A DNA stretch of 25,376 nucleotides from a virus. The stretch covers positions 1 through 25,376 of IMG/VR virus record IMGVR_UViG_3300042310_000039. One strand, 5' to 3'. The notes beneath the pieces are model-generated. The model saw nothing but the letters and a program-made list of their open reading frames with translations. It ran no database searches and was not told the origin of the DNA. Positions within the stretch are counted from its first letter, which is position 1, and every line of letters starts with the position of its first letter. The position numbers and the translations under genes were made by a program. Of this stretch, positions 2-18,010 are shown piece by piece.

Positions 2-3000
2 GATTGGACACGAGTATATCAAACCTTCCGTAATGCGGATTTTCAAAGCTACGACTACGAAACACTTCGTAAGTCGATGATTGATTATTTACGCTTATAT
101 TACCCGGAGGACTTTAATGACTTTATCGAATCAAGTGAGTTCATTGCGCTTATCGATTTAATTGCCTTCTTAGGTCAAAGTCTTGCTTTCCGAAGCGACT
201 TAAACGCACGTGAAAACTTTATTGACACAGCACAACGTCGTGACAGTATTCTTAAATTAGCCAAACTAATTTCATACAATCCTAAACGTAATATTCCTGC
301 TAGCGGATTTTTAAAAGTTGATAGTGTAAGTACTACTGAAAATATATATGATAGTAACGGCATTAATTTAGCTGGCTTAGTGATCTCCTGGGCAGATTCG
401 GCAAACGATAATTGGTACGAGCAGTTCACAGCAGTGATCAACGCAGGACTTTTATCATCTCAATCTATCGGTAAACCTAGTAACTCACAATTAATTAATG
501 GCATAACCAACGACGAATATCAAATAAATTTAGTACCGAATATTATTGCAACATATAGTTTCACAAGTAAAATTGAAGGTACCACGACTAATTTTGAAAT
601 GATTAGTCCGACAAGTGCTGGTAAAACTTTTATATATGAAAGTGCTCCTCGTCAAAATCAACCATTTAATCTACTTTATCGTAATGATAATTTAGGCAAT
701 ACTAGTACAAATACTGGATTCTTTACCTATTTCAAACAAGGTGAATTAAAGTCACTTGATTTTACATTCCAAGAAAGTACACCAAATCGTGTGTACAGTA
801 TTAACGTAGATAATATTAATAATACTGATATATGGTTATACAGTTTAGATGCGCAGGGCTTACCAAATGCTTTGTGGACTCAGGTCCCGGCAGTGGGTAA
901 TACTAATGTTATCTACAATAAAAGTTCTAGCAAATCCATCTTTCAAGTTAACACTCGAGCCAGTGACCAAATTGATTTAGTATTCGGTGACGGCGCATTT
1001 GCTAACATACCGCAGGGTAATTATAGATTGTATTATCGTGTAAGTAACGGTACTGATTATAAAATTACCCCAGATGAAATGCAAGGTATAGTCGTACCGA
1101 TTAACTATATTAGTCGAACCGGCCGTATCGAAACACTTACTATTCGTTCAAGTTTGCGCTACACAGTGGCTAATGCTAGTTCACGCGAGTCACTTGAAGA
1201 AATTAGACAAAAAGCACCACAACAATACTACACACAAGATCGTATGGTAACAGGCGAAGATTACAACATCTTACCTTACACATTGTTTAGTAACATACTT
1301 AAAGTTAAAGCAGTTAATCGTACCAGTTCTGGTATTAGTCGTTACTTAGATGTTATTGATACAACTGGAAAATATTCAAGTACCAACATCTTTGCAGAAG
1401 ATGGCGTACTATATCGCGATCCATTTGTTAGTTCAACATCTTTTGATTATAATACAAAGAACGATATTTACAAAGCAATTTACAATAAAGTAAAACCAGT
1501 CGTTTCTAATCCAGAAACACTACATTACTTCTATGGAGAATACCCACCTATTACATTAAGTAACACTTACTGGCATGATTCAACGACAATAGCAAATGGT
1601 GGTACAGGATATCTAGTAGACGCTACTAATATAATACTATCAGTTGGCGATACAGTTTCAAATAATAACAGATATATTACACAAGGGTCGGTCATTAAAT
1701 TTAGCGCAGGTGTAGGAAATTATTTTGATACACAAAACAATATCCAGCCCGGCGTTCCAGTTCGCCCGGGAGAAAAATATTATATTTACGCGGCTGTTCA
1801 ACAAGTTGTTGGTGACGGCACAAATGGCGGCGTTGGGAATTTATCTACTGGACTCGGACCAATTACGTTAAGTGAAAGAGTACCAGATGGTGCTGTAGCA
1901 ATTGTAGTGTATGCGGTATTCGACACTGAATTTTCAACTACCCTAACAGATACTATAGTAAGTTATGTACAAGCATACGAAGATTTTGGTCTACGGTATG
2001 ATAGCGGTACTACCTCATGGAAATTAATATTACCTGGTGATTTAGCTATTGGTGAATTTAGTCTCGCCAATACCGGAGACACTAGCAGTACAGGATTAGA
2101 TACCAGTTGGTTAATACGCTTTCGAGCAATCGGACAAACTTACACTGTTTATTATAGAGGTTTGAATTATGTATTTGAAAGTGTAAATGAAACTAACTTC
2201 TATTTTGATAATGCAGTTAAGGTCTTTGACCCGTCAACTGGAGTTACAATACATGATCATATCAAAATATTAAAAGTAAACTCGAATTCAGATGATTCAA
2301 ATCCACTAGCATTAGATTATACATGGTACATTTATAAAAATATTGTTGAAGTTGATGGTTATGAAAATCCTAATAAAATTTTAATTACATTTGCTGATTT
2401 AGATAATGATGGTATTTTTGACAATCCGGATTTGTTTGACATAATTGTTAACCCTAATGTTGATGTTAACAACAAATATGTATATTTCCAATCAATTACT
2501 GGATATAATAATTTTGCTACACAAACTTTAGTCAGCAATGCTTTAGTAGAATCATCATATAGTACATTAATTGCTGCCGAGGCTGCCGCAACATTATATC
2601 AGAATGGGCAATTATTCTATATTGTGCCTGAAAATAAATTTTATCAATTATCTATCAATGGTGCCGCCTACACATTGCTTGAAGTTTCGGGGTATACTGC
2701 TAAAAAAGGTAGACAGGATATATATTTTCAATATAGACACAATAGTCCAAATTATCGACGAATTGACCCGAGCCCAAGTAATATCATTGATTTATATCTG
2801 TTAACAAAACAATATTCGGATGATTATACTGCGTGGATACAAGATACTACTAATACTGTAGTTGAACCAACAGCTCCGAGTTCTAATGCGCTTTCTACAG
2901 AGTTTGGTATATTAGAGAAATATAAAAATTTAACAGATACAATTATTTACAATCCTGCTATATTTAAACCAATATTTGGCGCTTTGGCACCAGATTCGCT

Positions 3001-3343
3001 ACAGGCAACATTTAAGGTTGTAAAAAATTCTAGTATCATTGTTAGTGATAATGATATTAAAACTAAAGTAATTGAAGCAATTAATAATTATTTTGATGTA
3101 GCAAATTGGGACTTTGGTGAAACATTTTACTTTAGTGAACTGAGCGCATATTTACATAGTGTACTTGCTCCGAATATTGCAAGTATTACTATTGTTCCGT
3201 CTAGCGCAACTAGTGTATTTGGTAGCTTGTTACAAATTAATGCAAACTATAACGAAATTATTGTAAGTGCTGCTACAGTAGATAATGTACAGATTATTAG
3301 TGCTATTACCGCGGCGCAAATCAACCAAACTGTATTGGCTTAA
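2..3343 (+). CDS. 6: Baseplate wedge protein gp6 (T4-like), 5' partial
   Basis: Homologue of T4 gp6, the wedge protein that dimerises with gp6 of neighbouring wedges to close the inner ring of the contractile-tail baseplate. The frame is open to the window edge. The ATG at 77 is internal, because the 25 codons before it (including DYETLRKS) read straight into the family sequence, so the true start lies upstream. With the Met at 77 as residue 1, the N-terminal signature YYPEDFNDFIESSEF is at about 8-22, followed by NARENFIDTAQRRDSIL. The C-terminal dimerisation-type region has NYFDVANWDFGETFYFSEL at about 1004-1022. At least 1,113 residues are present, against 660 in T4. The extra length seems to lie centrally (roughly 480-950), where the sequence is beta-rich and Gly/Thr/Asp-rich and unlike T4 gp6. 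The gap to the giant gene is 30 bases, without a terminator. The family call rests on motif recognition and is strong; the limits of the central insertion are approximate. Confidence 0.93.
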   Translation, partial: DWTRVYQTFRNADFQSYDYETLRKSMIDYLRLYYPEDFNDFIESSEFIALIDLIAFLGQSLAFRSDLNARENFIDTAQRRDSILKLAKLISYNPKRNIPASGFLKVDSVSTTENIYDSNGINLAGLVISWADSANDNWYEQFTAVINAGLLSSQSIGKPSNSQLINGITNDEYQINLVPNIIATYSFTSKIEGTTTNFEMISPTSAGKTFIYESAPRQNQPFNLLYRNDNLGNTSTNTGFFTYFKQGELKSLDFTFQESTPNRVYSINVDNINNTDIWLYSLDAQGLPNALWTQVPAVGNTNVIYNKSSSKSIFQVNTRASDQIDLVFGDGAFANIPQGNYRLYYRVSNGTDYKITPDEMQGIVVPINYISRTGRIETLTIRSSLRYTVANASSRESLEEIRQKAPQQYYTQDRMVTGEDYNILPYTLFSNILKVKAVNRTSSGISRYLDVIDTTGKYSSTNIFAEDGVLYRDPFVSSTSFDYNTKNDIYKAIYNKVKPVVSNPETLHYFYGEYPPITLSNTYWHDSTTIANGGTGYLVDATNIILSVGDTVSNNNRYITQGSVIKFSAGVGNYFDTQNNIQPGVPVRPGEKYYIYAAVQQVVGDGTNGGVGNLSTGLGPITLSERVPDGAVAIVVYAVFDTEFSTTLTDTIVSYVQAYEDFGLRYDSGTTSWKLILPGDLAIGEFSLANTGDTSSTGLDTSWLIRFRAIGQTYTVYYRGLNYVFESVNETNFYFDNAVKVFDPSTGVTIHDHIKILKVNSNSDDSNPLALDYTWYIYKNIVEVDGYENPNKILITFADLDNDGIFDNPDLFDIIVNPNVDVNNKYVYFQSITGYNNFATQTLVSNALVESSYSTLIAAEAAATLYQNGQLFYIVPENKFYQLSINGAAYTLLEVSGYTAKKGRQDIYFQYRHNSPNYRRIDPSPSNIIDLYLLTKQYSDDYTAWIQDTTNTVVEPTAPSSNALSTEFGILEKYKNLTDTIIYNPAIFKPIFGALAPDSLQATFKVVKNSSIIVSDNDIKTKVIEAINNYFDVANWDFGETFYFSELSAYLHSVLAPNIASITIVPSSATSVFGSLLQINANYNEIIVSAATVDNVQIISAITAAQINQTVLA

Positions 3344-3373
3344 ATACTATATAACACTTGAGATTATAACGAC

Positions 3374-6300
3374 ATGGCGATAAAAAAGACTTCAAATTTA
3401 CTTCCTAGCATATTCCAAACCGACGTTAACAATAAGTTCTTGTCGGCCACAATGGATCAGTTAGTAACTGAACCAAATTTAAGAAATATATATGGCTATA
3501 TCGGAAGAACATTTGCGCCGACCTACAAAAGTAATGATAGTTATATAATCGAAAGTTCGGCCGAACGACAAAAATATCAACTTGAGCCGAGCATAGTGGT
3601 TCGCAATGAACAAAACGAAGTTACATTTTTTGCTAGTTATGTTGATTTATTAAATAAACTCGAATATTATAGCGGGCTAACGCCAAATCACGCTAAGTTA
3701 TTTGAAGCCGAATATTATAGCTTTGATCCGCACATATCACTTGACCATTTTGTTAACTTTACACAGTACTATTGGCTTGCTGATGGTTTAGATCCTGTTG
3801 ATGTTAATACAAGTGGGGTCGATTTAGAAAAAACATTTACTGTTACTCGTGATACAACTACAGCTCGTTACGATTTTTCTACCGGCGGCCAGATAAAGAA
3901 TACAATTACACTTGCTCGCGGCGGCCAATACACATTTGAAGTTAACCAACTTGGTTCTGGCTTCTGGATACAAACAGAACTTGGTGTCGATGGTCTAGTA
4001 AATGCGACACCAACAGTTAGTACACGAGACGTGCTTGGCGTTATTAATAATGGTGCTGAAACCGGCACCATTACATTTAATGTTCCGCAGGCAAATGCGC
4101 AAGATAGATATGTGTTAATGAATGTAGTAGCTAGCGTAGAATACGCAGTTCCACTTGCTTTCGCAGATATTCACAATAGCACAGTTAGTCAATTTGTCAC
4201 AGCCTTTCCGGCATACGCAGGAATCACTGGTCAACTTAATGGTGAAACTGCAATATTTGTTAATCAAAATTTATTAACAAATCGCGGTGAAGAAGCGTGG
4301 ACTATGCCCGAAGTCATTGATCCAGTTACTGGACTAGTTGTTCCGGGATATGATGCCGGTACAGTGATCTCGACTACGCAACGTTACGGAGTATGGAGAG
4401 TACAGTTCAGTGATATTGGTAATATTGACGATCCGTTGATTCGTTTGGTACATGTTCAGGATGTTTTGCTTAACGAAAAAGTATACATCAGATCTGGTCT
4501 TGTTAATGCCAATAAAGAATTCTTTAAAGATTACGATGAGTTCTTCCATGTTGTTCCTGTAATTTCAAGTATACAAGATACATTATATTTCCAAGACGGT
4601 AGCAATCCAGCTATCTACGGCACAATTAAACTTATTGATATTGCCGGCTGGGAAATTGATGTCGAAAACGACATATTAGGAAAATCTAACTACACTAGTC
4701 CTAACGGAGTTATATTCACTAGTGGATTAAAAGTAAGTTTTAGCACCGATGTTACTCCAGCAACTTATCAAAATAAAGAATATTATGTTGAGGGTGTAGG
4801 GTCATCGACTGGAATACAATTAATTGATGCGTCATTGTTAGTTACTTCCGAGTTATACAATGATGAACTAGCACTAAATTATCCAGACGGATTACCGGGT
4901 AATGAATCTAATGCAGAATATATTACAATTAATCGTTGTAGCAAAGATTTAAATGCTTGGTCTCGTAATAACCGTTGGTTCCATCGAGATGTAATCAAAG
5001 CCACAGCTGATTATAACGGCGTGATTGTAACATATGATCAAACTTATCGTGCGCGACGTCCGATTATACAATTTGACGCAAATTTACAATTATTTAACTA
5101 TGGTAGAATTGGTAAACAACCTATTGATATCTTAGATGTAACTACAAAAAATGCGTTAATAGATATACAAGGAAAAGTATTAACTGTTATAGGCGGAGTT
5201 ACTTTAGTTGACGGCATGCGAATTATATTTGCTAATGACATCGACCCAGTAGTACGTGATAATATCTATACAATTAATTTAGTACAACTTGCTGTTGACA
5301 TTAATGGATTGCCATCTGGACCTGTATATATAAATTTAAATCCTGCCACTGATGCTAACAATGAAATTTATGATACTGTGGTAGTAAAAACAGGATTGTA
5401 TAAAGGAACGCAATGGTGGTATAATGGAGATACTTGGGAACAAAGCCAACAAAAAACTAGCCTACAACAAGAACCGATGTTTGATATGTATGACACTAGT
5501 GGAACAAGTTTATCTCTTTATACTAACAGTACATTTGCTGGTACAAAATTATTTGGCTATAACAGAACAAGTACAAGTACAGTAGTAGATCCTGTACTTA
5601 AATTTCCATTAAAATACAGAACATTCCTTACACAAGGCGATATTGAATTTTCTAACTATTTTGACACAGATGAATTTAGTTATATACTCAATCAAATAGC
5701 ATATACTAGTCAAATTTCCATTGGATTTTTACAAAAAATTATAGATAGAAATATAGTAGTTCCAACTAATATTTGGAAGAAATCAACTGAGATACTACAT
5801 CATGAACAACTTATTACATACGTATATGACGGGTTGAATAGTCCGTTTAAAATTGATGTTACTCCAGCAGCGGCGACGTCTGTTCCACATGTTAAAGTTT
5901 ATAAAAATAACACATTCTTAAAAACAACACAGTGGACTCTGACAAATAATGCGTTGACGTTAGCTACTGAACCTTCTATAGGTGATAAAATTGATATATT
6001 AATTTTTAGTAATGATATAAGTGCGCTTGGTCAGTATCAAGTTCCACAAAATTTAGATTTAAATGCTCAAAATATTAACCTAACATCGTTAACATTAGGT
6101 CAACTTAGAAATCATCTGATTGAGTTGAGTCAAAATAGTACTGAGCTTGTTGGCGATGTTCTTAGCGAAAGTAATCTCAGAGATATCGAGATTACATCAA
6201 AAGGCGGCAACATACTACAACATAGTGCGCCAATATCAAATGCCGCACTGTTTTTATTAAATGACAGCACAAACTTTATCGATGCAATTCGTTATGCGCA

Positions 6301-9300
6301 ACAAGAATACGCTAGATTTAAAAATAAATTCTTAGAATTAAGTGCTACACTATCAGGCATACAACCAACTGATCCTGTGGCCAGTGTGGATTTAATCTTA
6401 ACAGAAATTAACAAGATTAAAAACAAAACATTCCCATGGTTCTACAGTGACATGGTACCATACGGTACATTAAAAAATATTGTTAACGGTACAGGTTATA
6501 CAATATTCGACCCATTGGTACGTTCATATGAAATTACTTCGGTATTTGACGCCTATACTCTAGGTAATACTGCGGTACTTGTTTATTTAAATGATGTACA
6601 ATTAATCTTAGATAGAGATTATACATTTGATACAGATCGTCCGGCAATAACATTTAAGAATACTGTTACTTTAGAAGTAGATGATATTGTTAAAATTGTA
6701 GAGTATGCGGATACCAATGGATCTTATGTACCAGAGACTCCGAGTAAGTTGGGCTTATATCCTAAATTTATTCCTGAGATCTTCTTAGACGATACGTATC
6801 GTACACCTATCAATGTTATACGTGGACATGACGGCAGCATAACTCCAGCATTTGATGACTACAGAGATAGTTTTGTATTAGAATTAGAAAAACGTATTTA
6901 CAATAACATCACATTGCACAACATTAGTAGTTATCAAGACGTATATTCAGTTATACCAGGGAAATTCAGAACAAGTGATTATACAATAGGTGATGTTAAT
7001 CAATTATTATCTAAGAATTTCTTAAATTGGATCGGTAATAACAAAATTGATTTTACAGTCAATGATACATTTGAAAGCAATGATCCATTTACGTGGAACT
7101 ATAGTCGTTTTGTTGACAGAATTAACGGTGAAATATTGCCTGGTAGTTGGAGAGCATGTTATCAATATTTCTACGATACAATACGTCCACATTTGACTCC
7201 TTGGGAAATGTTAGGTTTTTCTACTATGCCATCGTGGTGGGTAGAAGAATACGGTCCTGCACCTTATACTGGCGGTAACAAACTTCTATGGGATGACCTA
7301 GAACTAGGATTAATTAAATACGGCGAACGTGCTGGTATAGATACTGTTTTTGCTCGTCCGGGATTATCAGCAGTTATTCCTGTAGACGCCAATGGACTTT
7401 TATTAAGCCCAGCAGCAATCATGACTGCGTCTTTCAATTCTACTAGAGCTGCAACAGCTTGGGCAGTGGGGCAACAAGGACCGGTCGAAGCGGCTTGGCG
7501 CATCAGTAGTAATTTCCCGTATGCTGTACAACAGGCCCTTGCTTTAGCTAAACCTGCTAGATATTTTGGTTTATTAATGGACATATCTCGATATTCAAAA
7601 AATAATACATTAAATCAATATCTGACTGATACAAACGATCACATTAAACAAACATCAATGACGTTCAACGGTGACACATCATCGGGCACTGTGGTTAGAA
7701 CAGCGGGCTATATAAACTGGATCGCTGATTTCCTAGTGAATCAAGGAATTAATCCTTCTAATGTTATTACTCCATTATTAAAAAATTATGAAGTCAATCT
7801 TGCCTACAAAATGGCCGGATTTAGTGATCAAAAATATCTTCAGGTATTGGCAGAGCAAAATTCGCCAACTAGCACAAATGATAGTATCGTTATCCCAAAT
7901 GAAAACTATAATGTACATTTGTATAAATCAACTCCGGTCGGTAAAATAACCTATAGCGGTGTAATTATTGAAAAAACAACAAATGGATATAGTGTACGCG
8001 GATATAATTTATCTAATCCGTATTTCACTATTATTCCAAGTGTTATAAACACAAACGCATATAAAATTACTGTATTAAACAATTCAGTGACGGTGTTTAA
8101 CGATTATCAAAATTTAAAACTAACAGTACCTTATGGTTACGAATTTAATAGCCAACAACAAATAGCTGATTTTTTAATTAGTTACGAAAGACATTTAATA
8201 GCCCAAGGGTTTATCTTTAATGATACAGATGAACAACTAGGCGAAACTCGTAATTGGAAATTGTCGACTAAAGAATTCTTATTTTGGGCACAACAAGGCT
8301 GGGCACCTGGTAGTATCTTAGTATTGAGTCCAGTGGCTAATGTGATAAATGCCGTTACCGTTGGAGCAATTACAGATGCTATCACAGATAGCCAGTATGG
8401 TTCTAAAGTATTAGATCAGAATTTTGCTTTAGTTAAAAATACAAACTATAATGTATTACGCAGTCCCACTACTTTCAAATTGACATTAACTAATGATGCA
8501 GTTATTGGCTATATCGAGTTAAATTTGGTACAATACGAACACGTTTTAATATTTGATAATACAACAGTGTTTAATGATATTATTTACAAACCAGAGCTTG
8601 GTAATAGACAATTTAGATTAAAATTGATCGGACAAAAAACAACTGAATGGAACGGTAGTCTTTATGCTCCGGGCTTTGTATACAATTCTGGTCAAGTTGA
8701 CGAGTGGGTAGCTGGCGTAGATTATTTAAAAGGTGCCTTAGTACAATTTAAAAATCAATATTTTGTCGCTTTACAGAATATTTCAGCAACGACTGAGTTT
8801 AGTTTTGCTTCGTGGAAACAACTTTCTGTTAGCGAAATTAAAAAAGGATTGTTACCAAACTTTGCTACTATTGCCACTAAGTCGCAAGCATACTACGATT
8901 CATATACAAACTTTAAAGATTCGGACCAAATTACATACAGTCACGGATTGATTGGATTTAGCACACGACAATATCTAACAGATATTGGCTTAAGTGATAC
9001 AACACAAATTGAATTATATAAAGGATTTATCAAGCAAAAAGGCTCAGCCAATGCTGTTAATCAATTATCTAACGCACAATTTAATAATCTAAGTAGTGAT
9101 ATAAAATTCTACGAAGAATGGGCAATACGTATAGGTGAATATGGAGCAATAGATACAAACCCGTATGTAGAAATTGTATTAGATGAATCAGCATTTGGAA
9201 TTAATCCTGTTTCTGCTACATTCGTAGCTAATACTAGCGGCAATGGCTTGAATATATTTGATAGTTCACAATTATACAAATCAAATAATTCTTACAACGG

Positions 9301-12300
9301 CACAATAGCATTGAATAGAGATGCTTATAGTAATTACGAGAATGATATCATAAAGGCTGGATATGTAAATATTGACGATGTTGATACTACTATATTCGAT
9401 CTTGCTAATTTTACAGATTTAAATAATCAATTAGATGCTATTGGCACAGGCTATACTATCTGGTGCGCAAGAGACTTTTCACAAAACTGGAATGTTTATC
9501 GAGTAACAGAAACTAACAATCATGTGTTTTTAGTATCTAACTCGCTTGATGGATTTGTAACATTTACCACAGACAGTCCACACAGTTTATCTGTCGGAGA
9601 TATATTCCTAATCCGTAGTTTTACTACAGAATTTGATGGTTTTTACCAAGTCGAAAGTGTAGTTGATCTTAATAATATATTAGTCAAGTACTCCGGTGAT
9701 ACAACACAATTAACCACACTCGACGGTGACGGTATATTGTTTGTTTTAGACAGTATACGATTTAACTACATGGAAACTGCCCGAGAATATGTTCCGCCAA
9801 ATGGATGGAAAGTTGGTGAAAAGATTTGGATCGACGAGGATGCCGAAACAACAGCAGTACAGGGTCAACCATTTGGTACGCAACCGAGCGGTACCTGGAA
9901 AGTGTACGAAAAAACACACCCATGGGGAGTGACTCAACGTTTAGTAAAAACAAATGATGTGTATATTACATTTAGTAATGTAGCACTAGCTAATGCCACA
10001 AGTACATTAACTATCGGAGGTAATGTTGTTACTGGGATTACAACTATTACAGGCAATGCTGTTGGCATTATATCAAATGTAGATATGTTTAACCCTAATG
10101 TAGCAAACGTAGCAGCAAGTCAGACTGTTAATAACAGTAATATATTTCCAGCTAATACTACCGTATCTTCATTAACGGTTGATACTGAATATACAGCCAA
10201 TGATGGATTCGGCCAAGCACTAAAAATGATTGACAATGCCGAACAAACTATTTTTGTAGGTACGACTTTATATGCCGGTACTGGTGCTGTAAGTGTATTT
10301 GATAAAAATACATCAAATGCTTACAGTAAAACGTCTACTATAACACCAGACGGTGCTAATACATTTACCTATGGTTCACATATCGACACAGCAGTTGACG
10401 GTACACAACTAAGAATGGCCGCAAACGCACCAACAAGTTCTGGTTTAGCCGGTGCTGCTAATGTTGGCTTAATCTATACCTATAATAAACTTGAAGGCGA
10501 AACTGTATGGAATAGAGGACAAGTTATTGCAGGCAATGTTAGTGCCACTAACGGACAATTTGGCCACGGCTTTGCGTTTGATGAATTAGGCCACTGGTTA
10601 TATGTTGGTGCTCCTTATGAATCAACTCCTAAAGTTTATGTCTACGGTTTAAAACGATTTGTAACTGAGGAAAGTGAGACAGTTACTACATCCGGATCTG
10701 TATCATCTATCACAGTACCATTTACACCCGAAGTAACTGATGATGCTAATTCATTAGTAGTTACTAGCGAAACACGTACATACATTCCAAATATTGATTA
10801 CACCTTATCCGGAACAACAATAACATTTATATCTGGAAACGTTAATGATACGCTTACAATTTCACAAGGCCCGTATTATACATTAGTCGAAACAATTAAT
10901 GGACCAGCGGGCAGTGAATTTGGTTTTTGTATCGATGCAAGTTTAAACGGAGCACAGCTCGGTGTTGGCGCTCCTGCTGATGGGGTAATCGGCGCAACCG
11001 GCGATTTACTTGCACAAGCTGGGGCAGTGTATATATATGATCGTGTAATTGAAGCATTTAATAGTACAACTGATACAGTATATACCACAGTAGAAACAAT
11101 TGCTCCTGTGTATAAAGTAACTGTTGATGATATTGAAATATTTAATTATACAGTAACTGGCGCAAACGAAATAACATTATCTGTACCGCTTGGTGTAGGT
11201 AAAAATGTAAAAATTGAAACTAACAAATTTACTCTATTAGAAAGAATAATCGGAATTGATAGCCTGGGCGGAAGTTTAAGTGCCATCCAGGAAGGAGCGC
11301 GATTTGGATCGGCCCTAACTATCTGTTCAAATAATTGTGCTTTCTACATCGGTGCTCCCTATTATAATTCCGGTACAGCTTACAATACTGGTGCTGTGTG
11401 GAAATTCCATAACAAGGGCACGCTATATGGTATCAACAGAGGGTTTACTAAGAATCCAACGTTTACTCCGGGCGACACAATTCGTTTAGATAACTTCCAG
11501 ATTACTGTGACTGGTACAAGTTTAGATAGTTTAATCGAAGATATCAATGATGCCAATCTATTAGGTATTACCGCAGTCAATGAAAACGGATACTTAAGAT
11601 TAGACAGTGATAAAACTGTAGCTAAAAATCGTTTACGTATTCTATCGGGCAGTGGTACAGTGTATGCTGACGCAGGCTTGGCTATATTTGCGTTCATGCA
11701 GATTATTGTTAATCCGTATAACAGCAATAATGAATATTTTGGTACTAAAGTTATATTGGCTCGTAATGCCTATATGCTAGTAATTAGTAGCGAACGCGGA
11801 ACAACAAATACTGTTACTACCTTTGATAATGACACTACAGTAATTGATGATGATTCTACATCTTTTGTTGATAGTATCAAAGTTAGCGGTAGTGTGTACA
11901 CATACGAATTATATGATGATCCTCGTGATATGGTTGAACATCCTGGACGTTATGCATTCTGTCAACAACTTGATCCAACTGATTTAAACACCGGCGACGG
12001 TTTTGGTACAGCAATCGATATAATCGGCGATTATATTATAGTAAGTGCACCAAGTGATGATACTACTATTAATGATGGTGGCAGTATTTACCTGTTTAAT
12101 AATATAATAAACAAACGTGGATGGAGTTTAATTAGATATCAACAACCGACAGTAGATATAGAATCAGTTAATAGAATGTATCTATACAGTAATCTGTCAA
12201 ACACTATTCTAACAACTTTAGAATTTATTGATCCTGCAAAAGGTAAAATACTTGGCCGAGCAGAACAAGAAATCGCATATAAAACCGGATATGATCCGGC

Positions 12301-15300
12301 GATATATAATCGCGGAACAAATAGCGCAGTTAGTTTAAATGATAATATATTCTGGAACGGTAATCAAGTTGGACAAGTATGGTGGAACTTAAGTCAACTT
12401 AGTTACATTGACTACGAACAAGATACAGTAACATATCGTAGCATTAATTGGGGGCGACTATTCCCAGGTTCAACAGTTGAGGTATTAGAGTGGGTAGAAA
12501 GTCCGTACTTACCAAGTACGTATGTTGCTCGAGGCGGAGAAGGTATTCCGAAATATGCCGACGATAGTGCTTATGCGGAATTAGTATATGTTGATCCAGT
12601 TACTAATATTATTAGTATTAAATATTATTTCTGGGTTAAAGATAAAACAACAGTTGATCCTAATAATAAAACTAGACAGCTACCTCTTGTGGCTATTCGA
12701 GATATAATCGAAAATCCTAAAAATCAAGGTATCCCCTATGCTGCAATTGTTAGTAATAATGTTATTAATCTATATAATATAGCCGATTATCTATCAGCAC
12801 AAAATACTATTTTACATGTCGACTATAACACAGTTAAGAACACTAATATTATTCACAGTGAATACGAGCTAGTACAAAAAGGTAACGCAGATAGTATAAT
12901 ATCTCCAAAAATTGTTAATAAATTAATTGATAGTTTAGCTGGGATTGATATATTAGGGGCAGAAGTACCCGATCCTGCTCTTAGTACTGCTAGTAAATTT
13001 GGATTAGGAGTACGCCCACGGCAGACTATGTTTGTTGATAAAACAACAGCTTATGCCAGTTTAGTAGATTATGTTAATAGTATCTTAATAACTAAACCGA
13101 TTGTTAGTACCTGTAATTTAAATACACTTAATACTCAGGAAGCACAACCCAATGTTAATCTAGGCGAATGTGATTTAAAAATTAATACAGATATTGAATT
13201 GGCATATCTCGATACTGATGTATTATCTGTAGGTTATACAGTGTTAGTAAATCAAGATACTACCCAAAATAATCTATGGACTGTTTATACATTATCTCCA
13301 ACTAAAACTTGGTCACTAACTCGAATCCAGCAGTATAAAACTTCTTTATATTGGAATTATGTTGATTGGTACGCAGAAGGAGTAAGTCCTACTGATATAC
13401 AACTTGATTATGTAGTTGATACACTTCCTGATGCTTTAAAATTACCAGTTGCTGTTGGTGATGATATACTTGTCAAGGTTGGTAGTGGCAATAGTGGTTG
13501 GACTCTTATTTCAGTAGCGGCTGATCTTGCTTATACTATCGTGGGCAGACAGAATGGAACAATACAATTAACAACATCAAACAATGATACTGTTATTCCT
13601 ACTACTCCGACTATAGAAATTCGTCATATAATCAACGCTCTTAAAGATGATATTTTTATCGGTGAATTAGATGCTGAATTTAATAATCTAATTTTTGTAA
13701 TGATTAATTATGCGTTAACTGAACAAAAATATGTAGATTGGTTATTTAAAACTAGTTTTATTAGTGTATCACATAAATTGCGTTCGCTATTACAATATCC
13801 AAACTATATTAAAGATAATCAAACGTATTATGAAAATTACATCACAGAAGTTAAACCATATTCAACTAAAATACGTGAATATTCTATTAACTATGATAGT
13901 AATGATGAATTTGCGGGTAGTGTAACCGACTTTGATTTACCACCGTACTATGATACAGAAACAAAAGTATTCCGTAGCCCGAGTGGTGAAAATGTAATTA
14001 AAGATGAGGCATTATGGCAAACTGATACCTACAACCAATGGTATACTAATAGAAACCACCGTGTTGAAAATATTATAGTAGAAAATGCCGGCAGTGGATA
14101 TACATCCGAACCAATAGTCACTATTGTGGGTGGTGGTCTTGCTGCTACCGGAGCAACTGCCCGCGCGGTTATTGACTTTGATTTAGGTACTGTGATTAGA
14201 ATTGAAATTCTTACTCGCGGTACTGGCTATTATCAAACTCCGACTGTGGTTATTAATGGCACGAATACAACTCCGGCAACAGCCTACGCACAATTAGGGA
14301 ACATACCATTTGAAGCACCGCAGCCTAACGCAGGTCATGCCTTAGTAAGAACATTTGATACAACATTAAAATTTGATAGAATCAGTTACACTAGTTCTGT
14401 AACAGAATGGGCTGCTAATACTGCTTATACTGTTGGAGATATCATAACTCGTCTTGATTTAAATGGAGTACGGACTGCGTATATAGCTACTACTAATACA
14501 AGTCCTAGCTCAACTTTTATATCAGACAATTACAGTGTGTACAATGCGTCTGATTTTACTAATGCTACCGATCGTGTTATGGGGTACTATGAACCTAATT
14601 CGGCGATGACTACCATCGAAACAAGCTCAACTATAATAACAACCGCTAATACTACTACTAGTAGTACTACAATTTATCTCGTAAATAATATTAATGATCT
14701 ACATATCGGGATGTATATTAGTGGCAATGGAGTTACATCGAGTTTAATTACTAACGTTGTATTAAATGTATTAGAAGATGTTAGTTATATTACTGTCGAC
14801 ATTGCCCAAACTATTGCAGCAGGAACAGAAATTACTGCAACTTACAAAAACTTAGGGGAGTTACTGAAAGGCATTAATTACCCCGGAGTAAAAGTACAAG
14901 GTCTTAATTTTAATCAAGCACCTGGGTTTGATGGGCCAACACCGTTTGATCAAGGTATATTTGATAATATTCAATATGATGCTGATGGTTTACCTATGTT
15001 AGATGATGCAACTGTGGATACAATTATTCGTAGTAGCTACACCGACTTGGCATTAGGCACACGAGCAGAAGATATCGATGTTGTGGGTGGTGCGTATGTT
15101 GATACATATTCAAGTCATGCTCCAGAAGAAATGGTTCCTGGTATTGTATTTGATACACTAGACATGCAGGTTTATACTAAAATTAACGGCAATGTTGATG
15201 TAATTGCCTACAGAATGTTTAGTAACATGATGCGTGAAGAAAGTTATTTACGTATTGCTGATGCCCATGCAACAACATTAGTGGCTCCGTTGGGTTTAAC

Positions 15301-16342
15301 TGATACTGAGATTTTTGTAGCAGATGCTAGTAAATTAGCTGAACCGTTTGTAGATGTGATCGGGTTAGCCCAAATATCATTGCCGGGGGTGATCTTCATT
15401 AACGGTGAGCGTATAACTTATTATACTCGTAATTTACTTACAAACACACTTGGGCAAATACGTCGCGGCACGCAAGGAACTGCCACCCCATCGATTCAAC
15501 TTGCTGGTACAGTTGTAACTGATGGGGGAGATGATCAATTAGTTCCTAATGTAGCAACAAATATAGCAGTCAGCACAACTACCCCGTATACAGTAACATC
15601 GACTCGTTCATACTATCTTTCACTAACTGACAGTATAACTGCTAACGTAGGTGATGTGATAACACAAACTGCATCTGGAGCATCATTGACTGTAGCTGGT
15701 ATTGATTCTGTGGCACGGGTATTATTAGTCGTACGTAATAATTCAAACAGCTTAACATTCCAAGAAAATCAAATTGGGCTAAGTGGAAACGTTACAGTAT
15801 CTAGTGGTGATTACATAACGCAATCATCAACTGGTGCTAATGTAACTGTATTAACTAGTGGCGCTAATATTAGTAACGTTGAAGTAAGTTACTACGGTAT
15901 TACAACATTAGCCACAGGTAAAGCTAGTGGTAATATTGCAATAAATGATTCTAATGTTGCTGTTTATCTGACTACTGTAACTGGCAACGTAATTGTTGGT
16001 ACAGAAATAATAATAAATGGTACTAGTACCGGAAATGTGTATCCGTTGAGTATTGTTCCTGTCGGCAGAAATAATGATGGAATTCCGTTTGTTGATAGTA
16101 ACGGCAACGTGACCATTGCGGCAAATATATCATTACATACAACAAATGTGTGGTATAATTTAGGCACTGGCATAGCAACAGACGGAACCGGCTTTAATGG
16201 AGCAACAACCGAACAGGTGTTATTCTTAAAAGCTAGCACAGCATCGAACATTGTAGTTACCGCAATTAAAGATATGATTACGACAGAAGATGCGGTAAAT
16301 ACACTAACTACTGAAGATAGTAAAATAATTATTGAGGATTAA
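3374..16342 (+). CDS. Giant multidomain virion/baseplate protein (4,322 aa) at the gp7 position
   Basis: A single open frame of 12,969 bases, directly after gp6. The N-terminus (about 5-140) has LPSIFQTDVNNKFLSATMDQ, YQLEPSIVV and ending FTQYYWLADG, a pattern I associate with giant structural proteins of aquatic T4-like phages. Further blocks in order: WSRNNRWFHRDVI near 520; a small beta motif near 838-877 and 1067-1112; a CBM5/12-like module at 1775-1818; IELYKGFIKQKGSANAV near 1880; seven FG-GAP repeats at 2277-2915; DWLFKTSFISVSHKLR and EVKPYSTKIREY near 3455-3510; a paired GSGYTSEP/GTGYYQTP beta repeat at 3564-3640; YVDTYSSHAPEEMVPG near 3908; ITYYTRN...GQIRRGTQGT near 4010. I count only about nine cysteines. 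No signal peptide or membrane segment is visible. By position it may replace gp7, and the KGSANAV segment recalls the KG-alpha-helical part of gp7/tail protein I families; this equivalence is inference. The start is ATG with a weak TTGAG at 3358-3362. Being a virion protein is likely; its exact role is unknown. Confidence 0.85.
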   Translation: MAIKKTSNLLPSIFQTDVNNKFLSATMDQLVTEPNLRNIYGYIGRTFAPTYKSNDSYIIESSAERQKYQLEPSIVVRNEQNEVTFFASYVDLLNKLEYYSGLTPNHAKLFEAEYYSFDPHISLDHFVNFTQYYWLADGLDPVDVNTSGVDLEKTFTVTRDTTTARYDFSTGGQIKNTITLARGGQYTFEVNQLGSGFWIQTELGVDGLVNATPTVSTRDVLGVINNGAETGTITFNVPQANAQDRYVLMNVVASVEYAVPLAFADIHNSTVSQFVTAFPAYAGITGQLNGETAIFVNQNLLTNRGEEAWTMPEVIDPVTGLVVPGYDAGTVISTTQRYGVWRVQFSDIGNIDDPLIRLVHVQDVLLNEKVYIRSGLVNANKEFFKDYDEFFHVVPVISSIQDTLYFQDGSNPAIYGTIKLIDIAGWEIDVENDILGKSNYTSPNGVIFTSGLKVSFSTDVTPATYQNKEYYVEGVGSSTGIQLIDASLLVTSELYNDELALNYPDGLPGNESNAEYITINRCSKDLNAWSRNNRWFHRDVIKATADYNGVIVTYDQTYRARRPIIQFDANLQLFNYGRIGKQPIDILDVTTKNALIDIQGKVLTVIGGVTLVDGMRIIFANDIDPVVRDNIYTINLVQLAVDINGLPSGPVYINLNPATDANNEIYDTVVVKTGLYKGTQWWYNGDTWEQSQQKTSLQQEPMFDMYDTSGTSLSLYTNSTFAGTKLFGYNRTSTSTVVDPVLKFPLKYRTFLTQGDIEFSNYFDTDEFSYILNQIAYTSQISIGFLQKIIDRNIVVPTNIWKKSTEILHHEQLITYVYDGLNSPFKIDVTPAAATSVPHVKVYKNNTFLKTTQWTLTNNALTLATEPSIGDKIDILIFSNDISALGQYQVPQNLDLNAQNINLTSLTLGQLRNHLIELSQNSTELVGDVLSESNLRDIEITSKGGNILQHSAPISNAALFLLNDSTNFIDAIRYAQQEYARFKNKFLELSATLSGIQPTDPVASVDLILTEINKIKNKTFPWFYSDMVPYGTLKNIVNGTGYTIFDPLVRSYEITSVFDAYTLGNTAVLVYLNDVQLILDRDYTFDTDRPAITFKNTVTLEVDDIVKIVEYADTNGSYVPETPSKLGLYPKFIPEIFLDDTYRTPINVIRGHDGSITPAFDDYRDSFVLELEKRIYNNITLHNISSYQDVYSVIPGKFRTSDYTIGDVNQLLSKNFLNWIGNNKIDFTVNDTFESNDPFTWNYSRFVDRINGEILPGSWRACYQYFYDTIRPHLTPWEMLGFSTMPSWWVEEYGPAPYTGGNKLLWDDLELGLIKYGERAGIDTVFARPGLSAVIPVDANGLLLSPAAIMTASFNSTRAATAWAVGQQGPVEAAWRISSNFPYAVQQALALAKPARYFGLLMDISRYSKNNTLNQYLTDTNDHIKQTSMTFNGDTSSGTVVRTAGYINWIADFLVNQGINPSNVITPLLKNYEVNLAYKMAGFSDQKYLQVLAEQNSPTSTNDSIVIPNENYNVHLYKSTPVGKITYSGVIIEKTTNGYSVRGYNLSNPYFTIIPSVINTNAYKITVLNNSVTVFNDYQNLKLTVPYGYEFNSQQQIADFLISYERHLIAQGFIFNDTDEQLGETRNWKLSTKEFLFWAQQGWAPGSILVLSPVANVINAVTVGAITDAITDSQYGSKVLDQNFALVKNTNYNVLRSPTTFKLTLTNDAVIGYIELNLVQYEHVLIFDNTTVFNDIIYKPELGNRQFRLKLIGQKTTEWNGSLYAPGFVYNSGQVDEWVAGVDYLKGALVQFKNQYFVALQNISATTEFSFASWKQLSVSEIKKGLLPNFATIATKSQAYYDSYTNFKDSDQITYSHGLIGFSTRQYLTDIGLSDTTQIELYKGFIKQKGSANAVNQLSNAQFNNLSSDIKFYEEWAIRIGEYGAIDTNPYVEIVLDESAFGINPVSATFVANTSGNGLNIFDSSQLYKSNNSYNGTIALNRDAYSNYENDIIKAGYVNIDDVDTTIFDLANFTDLNNQLDAIGTGYTIWCARDFSQNWNVYRVTETNNHVFLVSNSLDGFVTFTTDSPHSLSVGDIFLIRSFTTEFDGFYQVESVVDLNNILVKYSGDTTQLTTLDGDGILFVLDSIRFNYMETAREYVPPNGWKVGEKIWIDEDAETTAVQGQPFGTQPSGTWKVYEKTHPWGVTQRLVKTNDVYITFSNVALANATSTLTIGGNVVTGITTITGNAVGIISNVDMFNPNVANVAASQTVNNSNIFPANTTVSSLTVDTEYTANDGFGQALKMIDNAEQTIFVGTTLYAGTGAVSVFDKNTSNAYSKTSTITPDGANTFTYGSHIDTAVDGTQLRMAANAPTSSGLAGAANVGLIYTYNKLEGETVWNRGQVIAGNVSATNGQFGHGFAFDELGHWLYVGAPYESTPKVYVYGLKRFVTEESETVTTSGSVSSITVPFTPEVTDDANSLVVTSETRTYIPNIDYTLSGTTITFISGNVNDTLTISQGPYYTLVETINGPAGSEFGFCIDASLNGAQLGVGAPADGVIGATGDLLAQAGAVYIYDRVIEAFNSTTDTVYTTVETIAPVYKVTVDDIEIFNYTVTGANEITLSVPLGVGKNVKIETNKFTLLERIIGIDSLGGSLSAIQEGARFGSALTICSNNCAFYIGAPYYNSGTAYNTGAVWKFHNKGTLYGINRGFTKNPTFTPGDTIRLDNFQITVTGTSLDSLIEDINDANLLGITAVNENGYLRLDSDKTVAKNRLRILSGSGTVYADAGLAIFAFMQIIVNPYNSNNEYFGTKVILARNAYMLVISSERGTTNTVTTFDNDTTVIDDDSTSFVDSIKVSGSVYTYELYDDPRDMVEHPGRYAFCQQLDPTDLNTGDGFGTAIDIIGDYIIVSAPSDDTTINDGGSIYLFNNIINKRGWSLIRYQQPTVDIESVNRMYLYSNLSNTILTTLEFIDPAKGKILGRAEQEIAYKTGYDPAIYNRGTNSAVSLNDNIFWNGNQVGQVWWNLSQLSYIDYEQDTVTYRSINWGRLFPGSTVEVLEWVESPYLPSTYVARGGEGIPKYADDSAYAELVYVDPVTNIISIKYYFWVKDKTTVDPNNKTRQLPLVAIRDIIENPKNQGIPYAAIVSNNVINLYNIADYLSAQNTILHVDYNTVKNTNIIHSEYELVQKGNADSIISPKIVNKLIDSLAGIDILGAEVPDPALSTASKFGLGVRPRQTMFVDKTTAYASLVDYVNSILITKPIVSTCNLNTLNTQEAQPNVNLGECDLKINTDIELAYLDTDVLSVGYTVLVNQDTTQNNLWTVYTLSPTKTWSLTRIQQYKTSLYWNYVDWYAEGVSPTDIQLDYVVDTLPDALKLPVAVGDDILVKVGSGNSGWTLISVAADLAYTIVGRQNGTIQLTTSNNDTVIPTTPTIEIRHIINALKDDIFIGELDAEFNNLIFVMINYALTEQKYVDWLFKTSFISVSHKLRSLLQYPNYIKDNQTYYENYITEVKPYSTKIREYSINYDSNDEFAGSVTDFDLPPYYDTETKVFRSPSGENVIKDEALWQTDTYNQWYTNRNHRVENIIVENAGSGYTSEPIVTIVGGGLAATGATARAVIDFDLGTVIRIEILTRGTGYYQTPTVVINGTNTTPATAYAQLGNIPFEAPQPNAGHALVRTFDTTLKFDRISYTSSVTEWAANTAYTVGDIITRLDLNGVRTAYIATTNTSPSSTFISDNYSVYNASDFTNATDRVMGYYEPNSAMTTIETSSTIITTANTTTSSTTIYLVNNINDLHIGMYISGNGVTSSLITNVVLNVLEDVSYITVDIAQTIAAGTEITATYKNLGELLKGINYPGVKVQGLNFNQAPGFDGPTPFDQGIFDNIQYDADGLPMLDDATVDTIIRSSYTDLALGTRAEDIDVVGGAYVDTYSSHAPEEMVPGIVFDTLDMQVYTKINGNVDVIAYRMFSNMMREESYLRIADAHATTLVAPLGLTDTEIFVADASKLAEPFVDVIGLAQISLPGVIFINGERITYYTRNLLTNTLGQIRRGTQGTATPSIQLAGTVVTDGGDDQLVPNVATNIAVSTTTPYTVTSTRSYYLSLTDSITANVGDVITQTASGASLTVAGIDSVARVLLVVRNNSNSLTFQENQIGLSGNVTVSSGDYITQSSTGANVTVLTSGANISNVEVSYYGITTLATGKASGNIAINDSNVAVYLTTVTGNVIVGTEIIINGTSTGNVYPLSIVPVGRNNDGIPFVDSNGNVTIAANISLHTTNVWYNLGTGIATDGTGFNGATTEQVLFLKASTASNIVVTAIKDMITTEDAVNTLTTEDSKIIIED
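8696..8827 (+). other. CBM5/12-like carbohydrate-binding module within the giant protein
   Basis: Residues about 1775-1818 read EWVAGVDYLKGALVQFKN, then QYFVALQN, then ASWKQL. This follows the chitin-binding module 5/12 pattern: W near the start, Y..G..V before a turn, an aromatic Y followed by hydrophobic-A, and a closing W about 40 residues on. A second, weaker copy is EWAANTAYTVGDIITRLDLN followed by AYIATTNTSPSS, near residues 3676-3720 (nt about 14405-14550), which lacks a clear closing Trp. In phage tail proteins such modules are generally thought to bind surface glycans or to act as small structural inserts. Carbohydrate binding here is inferred from pattern only. Confidence 0.5.
10202..12120 (+). 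other. Seven-repeat FG-GAP beta-propeller domain within the giant protein
   Basis: Seven FG-GAP-type units are visible, starting near residues 2277 (DGFGQALKM), 2331 (FTYGSHIDT), 2394 (GQFGHGFAF), 2513 (GSEFGFCID), 2641 (GARFGSALT), 2786 (NEYFGTKVI) and 2874 (GDGFGTAID), ending about 2915. Most continue with a hydrophobic strand and the GAP-like element (YVGAPYES, GVGAPADG, YIGAPYYN, IVSAPSDD), then a G.V.VY/F strand such as GAVYIYDR, GAVWKFHN or GSIYLFNN. Seven units is the number in the integrin-alpha propeller. The classical DxDxDG calcium loop is not evident, so this resembles the calcium-free FG-GAP form. Units 3-6 are separated by insertions of about 60-90 residues, two of which contain a small beta motif found elsewhere in the same protein. 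Such propellers often mediate protein or glycan contact; the ligand is unknown. Confidence 0.75.
16333..16338 (+). promoter_or_regulatory. Shine-Dalgarno site for the coiled-coil fibre gene
   Basis: TGAGGA lies inside the last codons of the giant gene, six bases before the ATG at 16345. Together with the two-base gap between stop and start, it fixes the start of the next gene and suggests translational coupling. Confidence 0.7.
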
Positions 16343-16344
16343 GA

Positions 16345-18006
16345 ATGTCGACGATTAAGATTAGCGAATTAGGAAATTTAACTACAGTACTAGGGAATAC
16401 AATTGTACCTGTAGTTGGTAATGTTGCTGGAACACTAACAACATTGCGAAGTAATGTTGCGCAATTACAAACATTCATCCTCGGAACTGTAGTTACAGAT
16501 TTAGCAAATTTAACTGCGTCAACCACAGCCAATGCTGCGGTACAAAGCGGTGCCATTACTGCCGTCGATGCTGCATGGCAAGCCAATGCCGCAACGCAAT
16601 TAAGTCAAATCACAGCCGCTAATGCCGCAATAGTAACAGCTAATACAGCATTGAAAGGGTATGTTGATGCGGCAAATACCATACAATCAAATGAAATCAC
16701 AACAATTAGCAATTCAGTAACAAGTGCCAACACTAATATGAAGGGTTATGTAGACGCGGCAAATACCATACAATCAAATGAAATCACAACAATTAGCAAT
16801 TCAGTTACAGGCGCAAATGCTGCTATAGTTACAGCTAATACGGCAATGAAAGGCTATGTAGACGCGGCTAATACTGTACAATCAAATGAAATCACAGCAA
16901 TTAGTAATTCGGTTACAGGCGCCAATGCCGCAATTGTAACTGCAAATACAGCAATGAAAGGCTATGTTGATGCGGCTAATACTATACAATCAAATGAAAT
17001 CACAGCAATTAGTAATTCGGTTACAGGCGCCAATGCTGCTATAGTTACAGCTAATACAGCAATGAAAGGCTATGTTGATGCTAATAATGCTACGCAACTA
17101 ACATCAATCAATAACATTACCAACGGAACTGCTACATTTGGAAATATTATTCCTAGTGCCAATGTAACTTATAATTTAGGTAGTCCAACCGCACAGTGGA
17201 AAGATTTATATCTAAGTGGTAGTACAATTTATATTGGTGGAGGCAATATCAGTGTTGCGAATAACACCTTTACTACTTCGTTGCCATTTACTGCCACTGG
17301 TACAATCTCAGCAGTTGATTTAGCTATTACTAATTCTATAATATGTGGCACAATTTTTGCTGACCAATCAGAGTTAACTGGGTACACAACATTATATCAA
17401 ACAGGGTTTGACAGCAATATGGCTAATTTAGCCTATGGTACTGTGGCATTATCTGTTACAACAAATGGCGATCCGAGAGCAGATCAAGGTGCTTTACTAT
17501 TCGAGGGTAACAATCCAGACGGAATTGGTATAGTTCCGTCGAATGATACTGCGTACACATTGGGATCTGCATCTCATCGCTGGGGCACTATATATTCACA
17601 GACTGTTGAGACTGAATCTGTTATCTTCTCAAATGGCGGCATATTTAGTACAATCGATGGTAGTGGACTACCTTATATTATCTTAGCAAGTGACGCGACT
17701 AACGCAACAGCAATAGCTACGCCAAGTTCAAATGTTTCTATTTTAAATTATATATCGATCAATGAAACGTATGCTAATGTAGTTGTCCATAATGCCAATA
17801 CCGCAGTGACACATACATGGCAATTTACCCAAGATGGTGATATTAAATTGCCAGCAGCCGGCGATATATTAGATTCAGCAGGCAATAGTGTAATAACATC
17901 ATTTACAATGGGCAATGCTGCACACTGGACTACACCGGTTACTACTATTGCAGCTGCATTGGATCAGATAGCCGAACGTTTATGGGACATTGAAAACCCG
18001 GTTTAA
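16345..18006 (+). CDS. Tail fibre protein with tandem coiled-coil-like repeats
   Basis: A 553-residue protein. The N-terminus MSTIKISELGNLTTV is a type common in aquatic phage fibre proteins and is probably the attachment end. Residues about 60-255 are Ala/Asn/Thr/Ile-rich and contain four tandem repeats (starting at 105, 134, 170 and 206) beginning GYVDAANTIQSNEI, plus a decayed fifth at 242; their spacing of hydrophobics suggests a trimeric coiled-coil shaft. Distal to this are two copies of the phage fibre motif N/T-LG...(R/Q)W..(L/I)Y: NLGSPTAQWKDLYLSG at 277 and TLGSASHRWGTIY at 405. The C-terminus (ALDQIAERLWDIE) is a short predicted helix. The gene is coupled to the giant gene, with a two-base gap and a good Shine-Dalgarno site. 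It is most likely a baseplate-attached fibre or fibre connector; receptor specificity cannot be read. Confidence 0.75.
   Translation: MSTIKISELGNLTTVLGNTIVPVVGNVAGTLTTLRSNVAQLQTFILGTVVTDLANLTASTTANAAVQSGAITAVDAAWQANAATQLSQITAANAAIVTANTALKGYVDAANTIQSNEITTISNSVTSANTNMKGYVDAANTIQSNEITTISNSVTGANAAIVTANTAMKGYVDAANTVQSNEITAISNSVTGANAAIVTANTAMKGYVDAANTIQSNEITAISNSVTGANAAIVTANTAMKGYVDANNATQLTSINNITNGTATFGNIIPSANVTYNLGSPTAQWKDLYLSGSTIYIGGGNISVANNTFTTSLPFTATGTISAVDLAITNSIICGTIFADQSELTGYTTLYQTGFDSNMANLAYGTVALSVTTNGDPRADQGALLFEGNNPDGIGIVPSNDTAYTLGSASHRWGTIYSQTVETESVIFSNGGIFSTIDGSGLPYIILASDATNATAIATPSSNVSILNYISINETYANVVVHNANTAVTHTWQFTQDGDIKLPAAGDILDSAGNSVITSFTMGNAAHWTTPVTTIAAALDQIAERLWDIENPV
16657..17067 (+). 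repeat. Tandem in-gene repeat array, unit 108 bases (36 aa) with one 87-base copy
   Basis: Four in-frame copies occur: 16657-16743 (29 codons), 16744-16851, 16852-16959 and 16960-17067 (36 codons each). A degenerate continuation follows from 17068. Copy 1 lacks seven residues relative to the others. Long stretches are identical at the DNA level: 50 bases between copies 1 and 2, and 51 bases between copies 3 and 4 (16878-16928 and 16986-17036). Copy 4 matches copy 3 in its first part and copy 2 in its last part. This is coding sequence, not a spacer-repeat array. Confidence 0.9.
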
Positions 18007-18010
18007 TACT

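Follow-up and report, generated by a model that had tools for sequence, protein, structure and literature searches.

A giant virion protein encoded behind gp6 in RaK2-type jumbo phages is a candidate gp7/gpI-class baseplate wedge protein

In T4, the slot behind the baseplate wedge gene for gp6 belongs to gp7. The locus described here raises the question of what fills that slot in a virus where a gp6-type gene is followed by a single open reading frame (ORF) of 12,969 bases. The sequence analyzed (hereafter the window) is a linear IMG/VR record of 25,376 bases (IMGVR_UViG_3300042310_000039). An earlier note, made from the sequence letters, had described an unbroken frame right after gp6, and this is borne out: the ORF is started by an ATG, has no internal stop, encodes 4,322 residues, and begins 30 bases past the stop of the gp6-type gene. 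The odds of 4,322 open codons arising by chance are ~10^-134 at the GC content of the window (36.4%), and a chance origin of the frame is out of the question. Comparison with locus L014, which is 91% identical to the giant in a conserved segment, revealed that synonymous codon changes exceed amino-acid changes in every 600-codon bin of the ORF; in comparisons with the more diverged loci L019 and L022, this excess fails in some 600-codon bins. The giant ORF is real and conserved, and it was previously catalogued as a virion protein with no assigned role.

The ORF upstream of the giant is gp6-like, as indicated by profile matches (hmmscan; phrog_10646, 4e-299; phrog_219, 1.3e-25) and by alignment with T4 gp6 (hhalign, 71.5%, E = 3.6e-5). 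The next ORF downstream begins at position 16345, 2 bases past the stop of the giant. The earlier note had recognized no homolog of gp7 through gp12 in the window. At the thresholds used, screening of 11 plus-strand ORFs, the giant included, against PHROGs and Pfam (hmmscan) likewise detected no gp7, gp8, gp9, gp10, gp11, or gp12 family. The 240-residue neighbor (Table 1) is common near the giants of relatives, and a profile built from their loci comprised 86 sequences including the query. Three consecutive fibre-type genes (18726-20087, 20119-21480, and 21511-22749) share the N-terminal families phrog_14394 and phrog_15511, and their N-termini look as if they had been duplicated at the attachment end. 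The second of these genes carries a C-terminal Peptidase_G2-like intramolecular chaperone domain (E = 2.2e-5, slightly below the Pfam cut-off).

Table 1. Features of the window, with nucleotide positions, strand, and basis of assignment (residues are those of the giant protein).
Feature	Position	Strand	Basis or remark
gp6-type baseplate wedge protein (BW2)	2..3343	+	5' end truncated by window edge
Giant virion protein, 4,322 aa	3374..16342	+	phrog_10938 (1222 bits) and homologs
N-terminal conserved block, residues 1-140	3374..3793	+	Residues 1-100 aligned in 9/9 named homologs, 101-140 in most
Main conserved core, residues 480-2000	4811..9373	+	Homolog alignment
CBM5/12 (chitin-binding type 3)-like module, residues 1773-1821	8690..8836	+	Fold only
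Helix-KG[TS]-helix and EEW segment, residues 1885-1918; candidate gpI/gp7 (BW3) core	9026..9127	+	
FG-GAP-like repeats (x7), residues ~2276-2900	10199..12073	+	Pattern and Pfam
Second conserved block, residues 2900-3600	12071..14173	+	Homolog alignment
GxGYxxxPxVxI beta repeat, residues 3561-3641	14054..14296	+	hhalign to cyanophage giant
Variable C-terminal arm, residues 3600-4322	14171..16339	+	Low conservation
240-aa conserved neighbor	17990..18712	+	phrog_11259 (9e-70); annotated with no role

The giant belongs to phrog_10938 ('virion structural protein'; E = 0, best stretch residues 861-1769 by hmmscan), a family that it shares with RaK2 ORF070, 121Q gp582, CBB gp236, PA5oct gp355, Atu_ph07 gp180, SCTP-2 gp140, and a protein of Phosso. 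In tblastn searches, residues 1-1,542 had relatives in 60 phage records and most of the remainder had them in 59, all below 60% identity and including RaK2, 121Q, CBB, PA5oct, Atu_ph07, Phosso, SCTP-2, and Vibrio 2.275.O. The giant is one gene in each of nine named phages (3,323-4,555 residues) and lies directly behind gp6 in eight of the nine; the exception is SCTP-2, where it is located ~92 kb away from gp6. A single phrog_10938 locus was detected in each of 11 records of the RaK2/PA5oct/Atu_ph07-type clade, comprising the nine named phages and two contigs of 329,321 and 218,902 bases (completeness not stated). The profile had no match in T4, S-SSM5, or S-MbCM7. As a separate observation, the SCTP-2 giant (L005:7771-28562) adjoins another very large ORF (~3,096 residues).

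Three scans of viral contigs yielded at least 597, at least 588, and at least 562 confirmed relatives, in sets that overlap. Among the matches listed, 229 loci were kept, 132 of them with a complete ORF, and 104 of these are distinct; the distinct complete copies among the matches listed have a median length of 4,384 residues, and 102 of the 104 fall within 3,000-5,200 residues. The gp6 gene is immediately upstream in 207 of the 212 testable loci among the matches listed, with loci on one contig counted separately. RaK2-type copies differ from that of the window in that they are devoid of most of residues 140-480 and of the FG-GAP region, and their C-terminal arms are different. Frame-split copies at L176 and L266 were considered as evidence for separate genes and rejected, because L176 resumes exactly at the frame break (relative to L183) and L266 loses ~50 residues at each of two breaks, which look like sequence or assembly faults.

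In relatives the giant is a virion protein, in support of what the earlier note had proposed; the published detections are of its orthologs. In phAPEC6, gp245 (381.88 kDa) was identified by 17 unique peptides in virion mass spectrometry and follows the gp244 baseplate wedge protein (PMC7247149); judging from its size and this neighbor, we take gp245 to be an ortholog. The virion table for CBB gives values of 21 and 7.72 for CBB_236, which we read as peptides and percent coverage (PMC5259590). The sequence record of PA5oct gp355 carries the note ESI-MS/MS.

The earlier note further suggested that the giant stands in for the whole gp7-gp10 region. The 11 clade records were screened with models of T4 baseplate proteins, T4 serving as the positive control; this genome-wide search was run in the records of relatives, the window being a single 25 kb record. 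Models of gp7 (phrog_964) and gp8 (PF09215) matched T4 only; at E = 0.1, neither had a match in any of the 11 clade records. A broader gp8 model (phrog_438) matched T4 and, end to end, both cyanophages (S-SSM5 and S-MbCM7). Among the jumbo phages it matched 17 times, in three records; 15 of these matches lie within the giant ORF, and all 17 are confined to the repeat-rich middle of the model (positions 185-340). Across the same 11 records, the gp9/gp10 N-terminal model (PF07880) and the gp11 model (PF08677) exceeded the cut-off in T4 only, with two and one sub-threshold matches, respectively. The Gp10_C model (PF21939) matched T4 and PA5oct gp358 (E = 1.4e-25), with two further sub-threshold matches, and the gp12 model (phrog_910) matched T4 and, over part of its length, three places in Vibrio 2.275.O (1.7e-20 for the best). 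The gene for PA5oct gp358 (L001:12122-13867) lies shortly downstream of the giant; the product has a Gp10_C-type end and its record is annotated as T4-like gp10. The table of T4 homologs published for CBB lists gp6, gp25, and gp53, and gp7, gp8, and gp10 were not found among its entries (PMC5259590). Collectively, these observations show that neither gp7 nor gp8 can be detected in the 11 clade records, whereas single members retain gp10- and gp12-type domains. Given the domains in PA5oct and Vibrio 2.275.O, the proposed replacement holds for gp7 and gp8 only.

Two regions of the giant are variable (residues 2000-2900 and 3600-4322), and for residues 3543-4322 the relatives identified were 11 Pseudomonas phage records only (E = 0.01). 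Alignments for structure modelling comprised 145 of 164 non-redundant homologs (A3), 74 of the 146 rows of A3 (A4), and 134 of 148 homologs together with the window (A6, collected with no motif pattern). The model of residues 1080-2060 (pLDDT 80.7, pTM 0.65) is a mixture of helix and strand. A Foldseek search of the PDB with this very long model returned nothing with E < 0.001, the CBM-like module filling the list, and phmmer comparison of the whole giant with PDB sequences gave no match at E = 1. Fold searches of BFVD identified 24 matches at E of 0.001 or lower; the ones with names came from uncultured Caudovirales phages, Atu_ph07, and Myoviridae sp. ctWb16, and a lectin-like protein was among them (2.5e-4). 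The module at residues 1773-1821 aligned best with the Milano baseplate chain 8fqc_P1 (VIA-align Z 8.6, rmsd 1.2 over 45 residues), tied with a chain of phage 7-7-1 (Z 8.1), and many chitin-binding domains followed (Z 5-7). The top Z is only slightly higher than that of unrelated models, and the module is called CBM-like by its modelled fold.

Seven FG-GAP-like repeats, five found by pattern and two by eye, start at residues 2279, 2333, 2396, 2516, 2644, 2789, and 2877, and the last is also matched by Pfam FG-GAP_2 (8e-8, residues 2864-2908). This number of repeats makes a seven-bladed beta-propeller likely, judging from the repeat sequences. At least three such repeats were found by pattern in 85 of the 132 complete copies among the matches listed. 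The beta repeat at residues 3561-3641 aligned with the cyanophage giant SSSM5_094 of S-SSM5 (hhalign, 98.6%, E = 7.5e-16), and the repeat occurs several times in cyanophage giants.

The great length of the protein, its repeats, and its lectin-like modules would suit a long fibre rather than a part of the baseplate wedge, and whiskers, one candidate for such a fibre, have been reported on CBB (PMC5259590). We consider this very improbable. CBB is described as typical of RaK2-like morphology except for its whiskers (PMC5259590), yet every one of the 11 clade records searched carries the gene; moreover, the giant adjoins gp6, and its modelled core of mixed helix and strand does not resemble a simple fibre repeat.

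The conserved blocks at residues 480-2000 and 2900-3600, which flank a variable insert, could alternatively be read as the outcome of a fusion between an ancestral gp7 gene and a gp8 (or gp10) gene, whose products can still fold into those parts. In line with such a fusion, gp8 is undetectable in the clade records, and one locus (L140:2840-17706) has what looks like a natural split: its giant stops close to the position of residue 3201 in the window's giant, and the counterpart of residues 3284-3503 is in a later ORF, behind an ORF of 1,419 residues that had no match in the compared set. In hhalign comparisons of 12 segments of the giant (residues 2300-2880 left out) with T4 gp53, gp5, gp6, gp8, gp9, gp10, gp11, and gp12, the best result was 5.0% (gp10), where four targets were represented by one or two sequences (gp12 by one, gp11 by two) and the gp6-gp6 control pair reached 71.5%. 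No segment compared in this way resembles gp8, gp9, gp10, or gp11, and we regard a fusion as quite improbable.

In the contractile tails that have been studied, a pair of gp6-type chains and a single chain of the gp7/gpI type (BW3) make up the wedge, and in the baseplates studied it is BW3 (T4 gp7 or P2 gpI) that receptor-binding proteins bind (PMC10811340). The BW3 proteins T4 gp7, P2 gpI, and Milano gp30 resemble the giant in that their genes come after gp6/gpJ and in having a KG[TI] motif after helices. They differ in length (4,322 residues in the giant versus 1,032 in T4 gp7 and 176 in P2 gpI), and the giant has no significant profile or fold match to them. None of the segments compared significantly resembles T4 gp7: none of the 12 segments exceeded 1% against T4 gp7 (hhalign, residues 2300-2880 left out), nothing was obtained when the giant was aligned with T4 gp7 and a single P2 gpI sequence, and the Foldseek result for residues 1080-2060 was null at the threshold given above. 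Known gp7-gpI pairs likewise score low in profile comparison. The Pfam gpI model (PF09684) did not match the giant at E = 10 and missed T4 gp7 too, and the BW3TFN model (PF25691) gave nothing over its cut-off in 14 records.

The KGSANAV segment, which the earlier note had viewed as a possible remnant of the core of gp7/tail protein I, begins at K1889-G1890-S1891. Among 135 homologs, K is conserved in 132 and G in 134, the next position is T or S in 131, and downstream E1914 and W1916 are conserved in 128 and 124, respectively. Against a P2-type gpI profile, the KG segment aligned in register at KGT, A, and EW with a score of 22.8, equaled by 2 of 200 block-shuffled decoys. Against a broader gpI set (eight usable added sequences, two of which have no KG[TS]), the score was 26.3 (11.6%) against a decoy mean of 18.2, and 3 of 200 decoys did as well. 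This score is flattered, since the sequences of the KG profile (F3) were selected with a pattern that demands the KG and E-W motifs. For comparison, the core of gp7 from T4 and cyanophages scored 21.2 (3.8%) against the same set, with 2 of 120 decoys as good. The gpI alignment of the KG segment is about as good as that of the gp7 core and is not significant alone. Six other segments of the giant and two neighboring proteins scored 20.0 or less against the gpI set, in a comparison that left out residues 140-480, 2060-2300, 2300-2880, and 3600-4322. Alignment of the KG segment with the T4/cyanophage gp7 core was weak (19 of 150 decoys as good), and a Pfam scan of the 135 KG-domain sequences gave scattered weak matches only. 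A model of the KG domain consists of helix, KG, and helix (pTM 0.37), and searches with it (Foldseek, VIA) gave no gp7 or gpI match and nothing useful. The in-register alignment with P2 gpI and the near-invariant KG lend modest support to the idea of a remnant, and these sequence comparisons make descent of the giant from gp7/gpI likely. We found no paper that assigns the phrog_10938 giant to gp7, which is not proof that none exists.

Giant proteins behind gp6 are also found in cyanophages. In S-SSM5, the virion protein SSSM5_094 (L269:4340-22855) comprises 6,171 residues, and its gene is flanked by gp6 and gp9. S-MbCM7_077, the giant of S-MbCM7, has 3,533 residues and directly follows gp6. 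The KGT segment of these giants aligned with the T4 gp7 core over 30 columns (95.8%, E = 7.4e-9), a score flattered in that the cyanophage profile (F2) was gathered by a pattern requiring FYxAKGT; plain BLAST with the S-SSM5 giant found the same place in the gp7 core (E = 0.016). Another large protein of S-MbCM7 (2,820 residues) carries the gp7 annotation, and it is therefore the KGT segment, not annotation, that supports the cyanophage precedent. Both this second protein and the motif-based collection of F2 weaken the precedent; a gp7-type segment inside a giant behind gp6 is nevertheless plausible in cyanophages from the sequence matches. Cyanophage giants resemble the jumbo phage giant in their slot behind gp25-gp6, their single giant ORF, the GxGY beta repeat, and a KGT segment. 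They differ in that their KGT segment matches T4 gp7, a separate gp8 is kept, and phrog_10938 has no match in them. Both a shared origin with the cyanophage giant and a parallel rise are possible for the jumbo phage giant. The earlier note had envisaged a baseplate built on a different plan. Such a plan would not be peculiar to this phage: the arrangement is common to the clade, and cyanophages too have a giant behind gp6, with gp8 kept.

From the ORF, its conservation, its gp6-adjacent position, and its domain anatomy, we infer that the giant is, with moderate probability, a greatly enlarged wedge protein of the baseplate that belongs to the gp7/P2-gpI class (BW3) and bears surface-facing domains in cis. 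Its location in the slot held by gp7 in T4, the conserved KG, the gpI alignment, and the lack of detectable gp7 and gp8 argue for this identity; the lack of a significant gp7 match, the gp7-core decoys, the null Foldseek and VIA results, and the distance between the giant and gp6 in SCTP-2 argue against it. By analogy with other BW3 proteins, one copy per wedge is probable. A core at residues ~1830-1920 (helices, KG[TS], and EEW) would join a bundle of the two gp6-like chains encoded just upstream. The parts that would project outward are residues 1-140 and 480-1820, the CBM-like module, the FG-GAP repeats, and the C-terminal block; they may link neighboring wedges and carry or anchor the fibres for receptor binding whose genes lie beside that of the giant. 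With a gp7/gpI-like core and outward blocks in one chain, the giant would supply in cis what T4 assembles from gp7, gp8, and other peripheral proteins.

The absence of a significant profile or fold match to gp7/gpI, together with the adhesin-type modules, would also be expected of a peripheral scaffold or adhesin that performs the outer functions of gp7 and is not its descendant. The KG would then be coincidental, and a small unrecognized protein would complete the gp6 bundle; since known gp7-gpI pairs score low, such a small gp7/gpI protein could escape detection. We find this unlikely in light of the in-register gpI alignment and near-invariant KG, the position of the giant beside gp6, and the T4-gp7-like segment of the cyanophage giant in the same slot. 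Returning to a BW3 identity, we tentatively suggest, with somewhat less than even confidence, that the RaK2-type wedge keeps three chains, that the third is a mega-protein combining the core with an inter-wedge lattice, a propeller, and carbohydrate-binding modules, that separate gp7 and gp8 have been lost, and that gp7 has grown comparably in cyanophages.

New here are the failure to detect gp7 or gp8 in the 11 clade records, the evidence for a gpI-like motif, and the cyanophage parallel. If the BW3 identity is right, a single protein forms much of the baseplate periphery in abundant jumbo phages, which would account for the finding of neither gp7 nor gp8 in annotations of the clade. The wedge would also gain a candidate for its missing third chain, together with a motif of 30 residues, and it would follow that a core part of the contractile tail can reach more than 20 times the length of P2 gpI.
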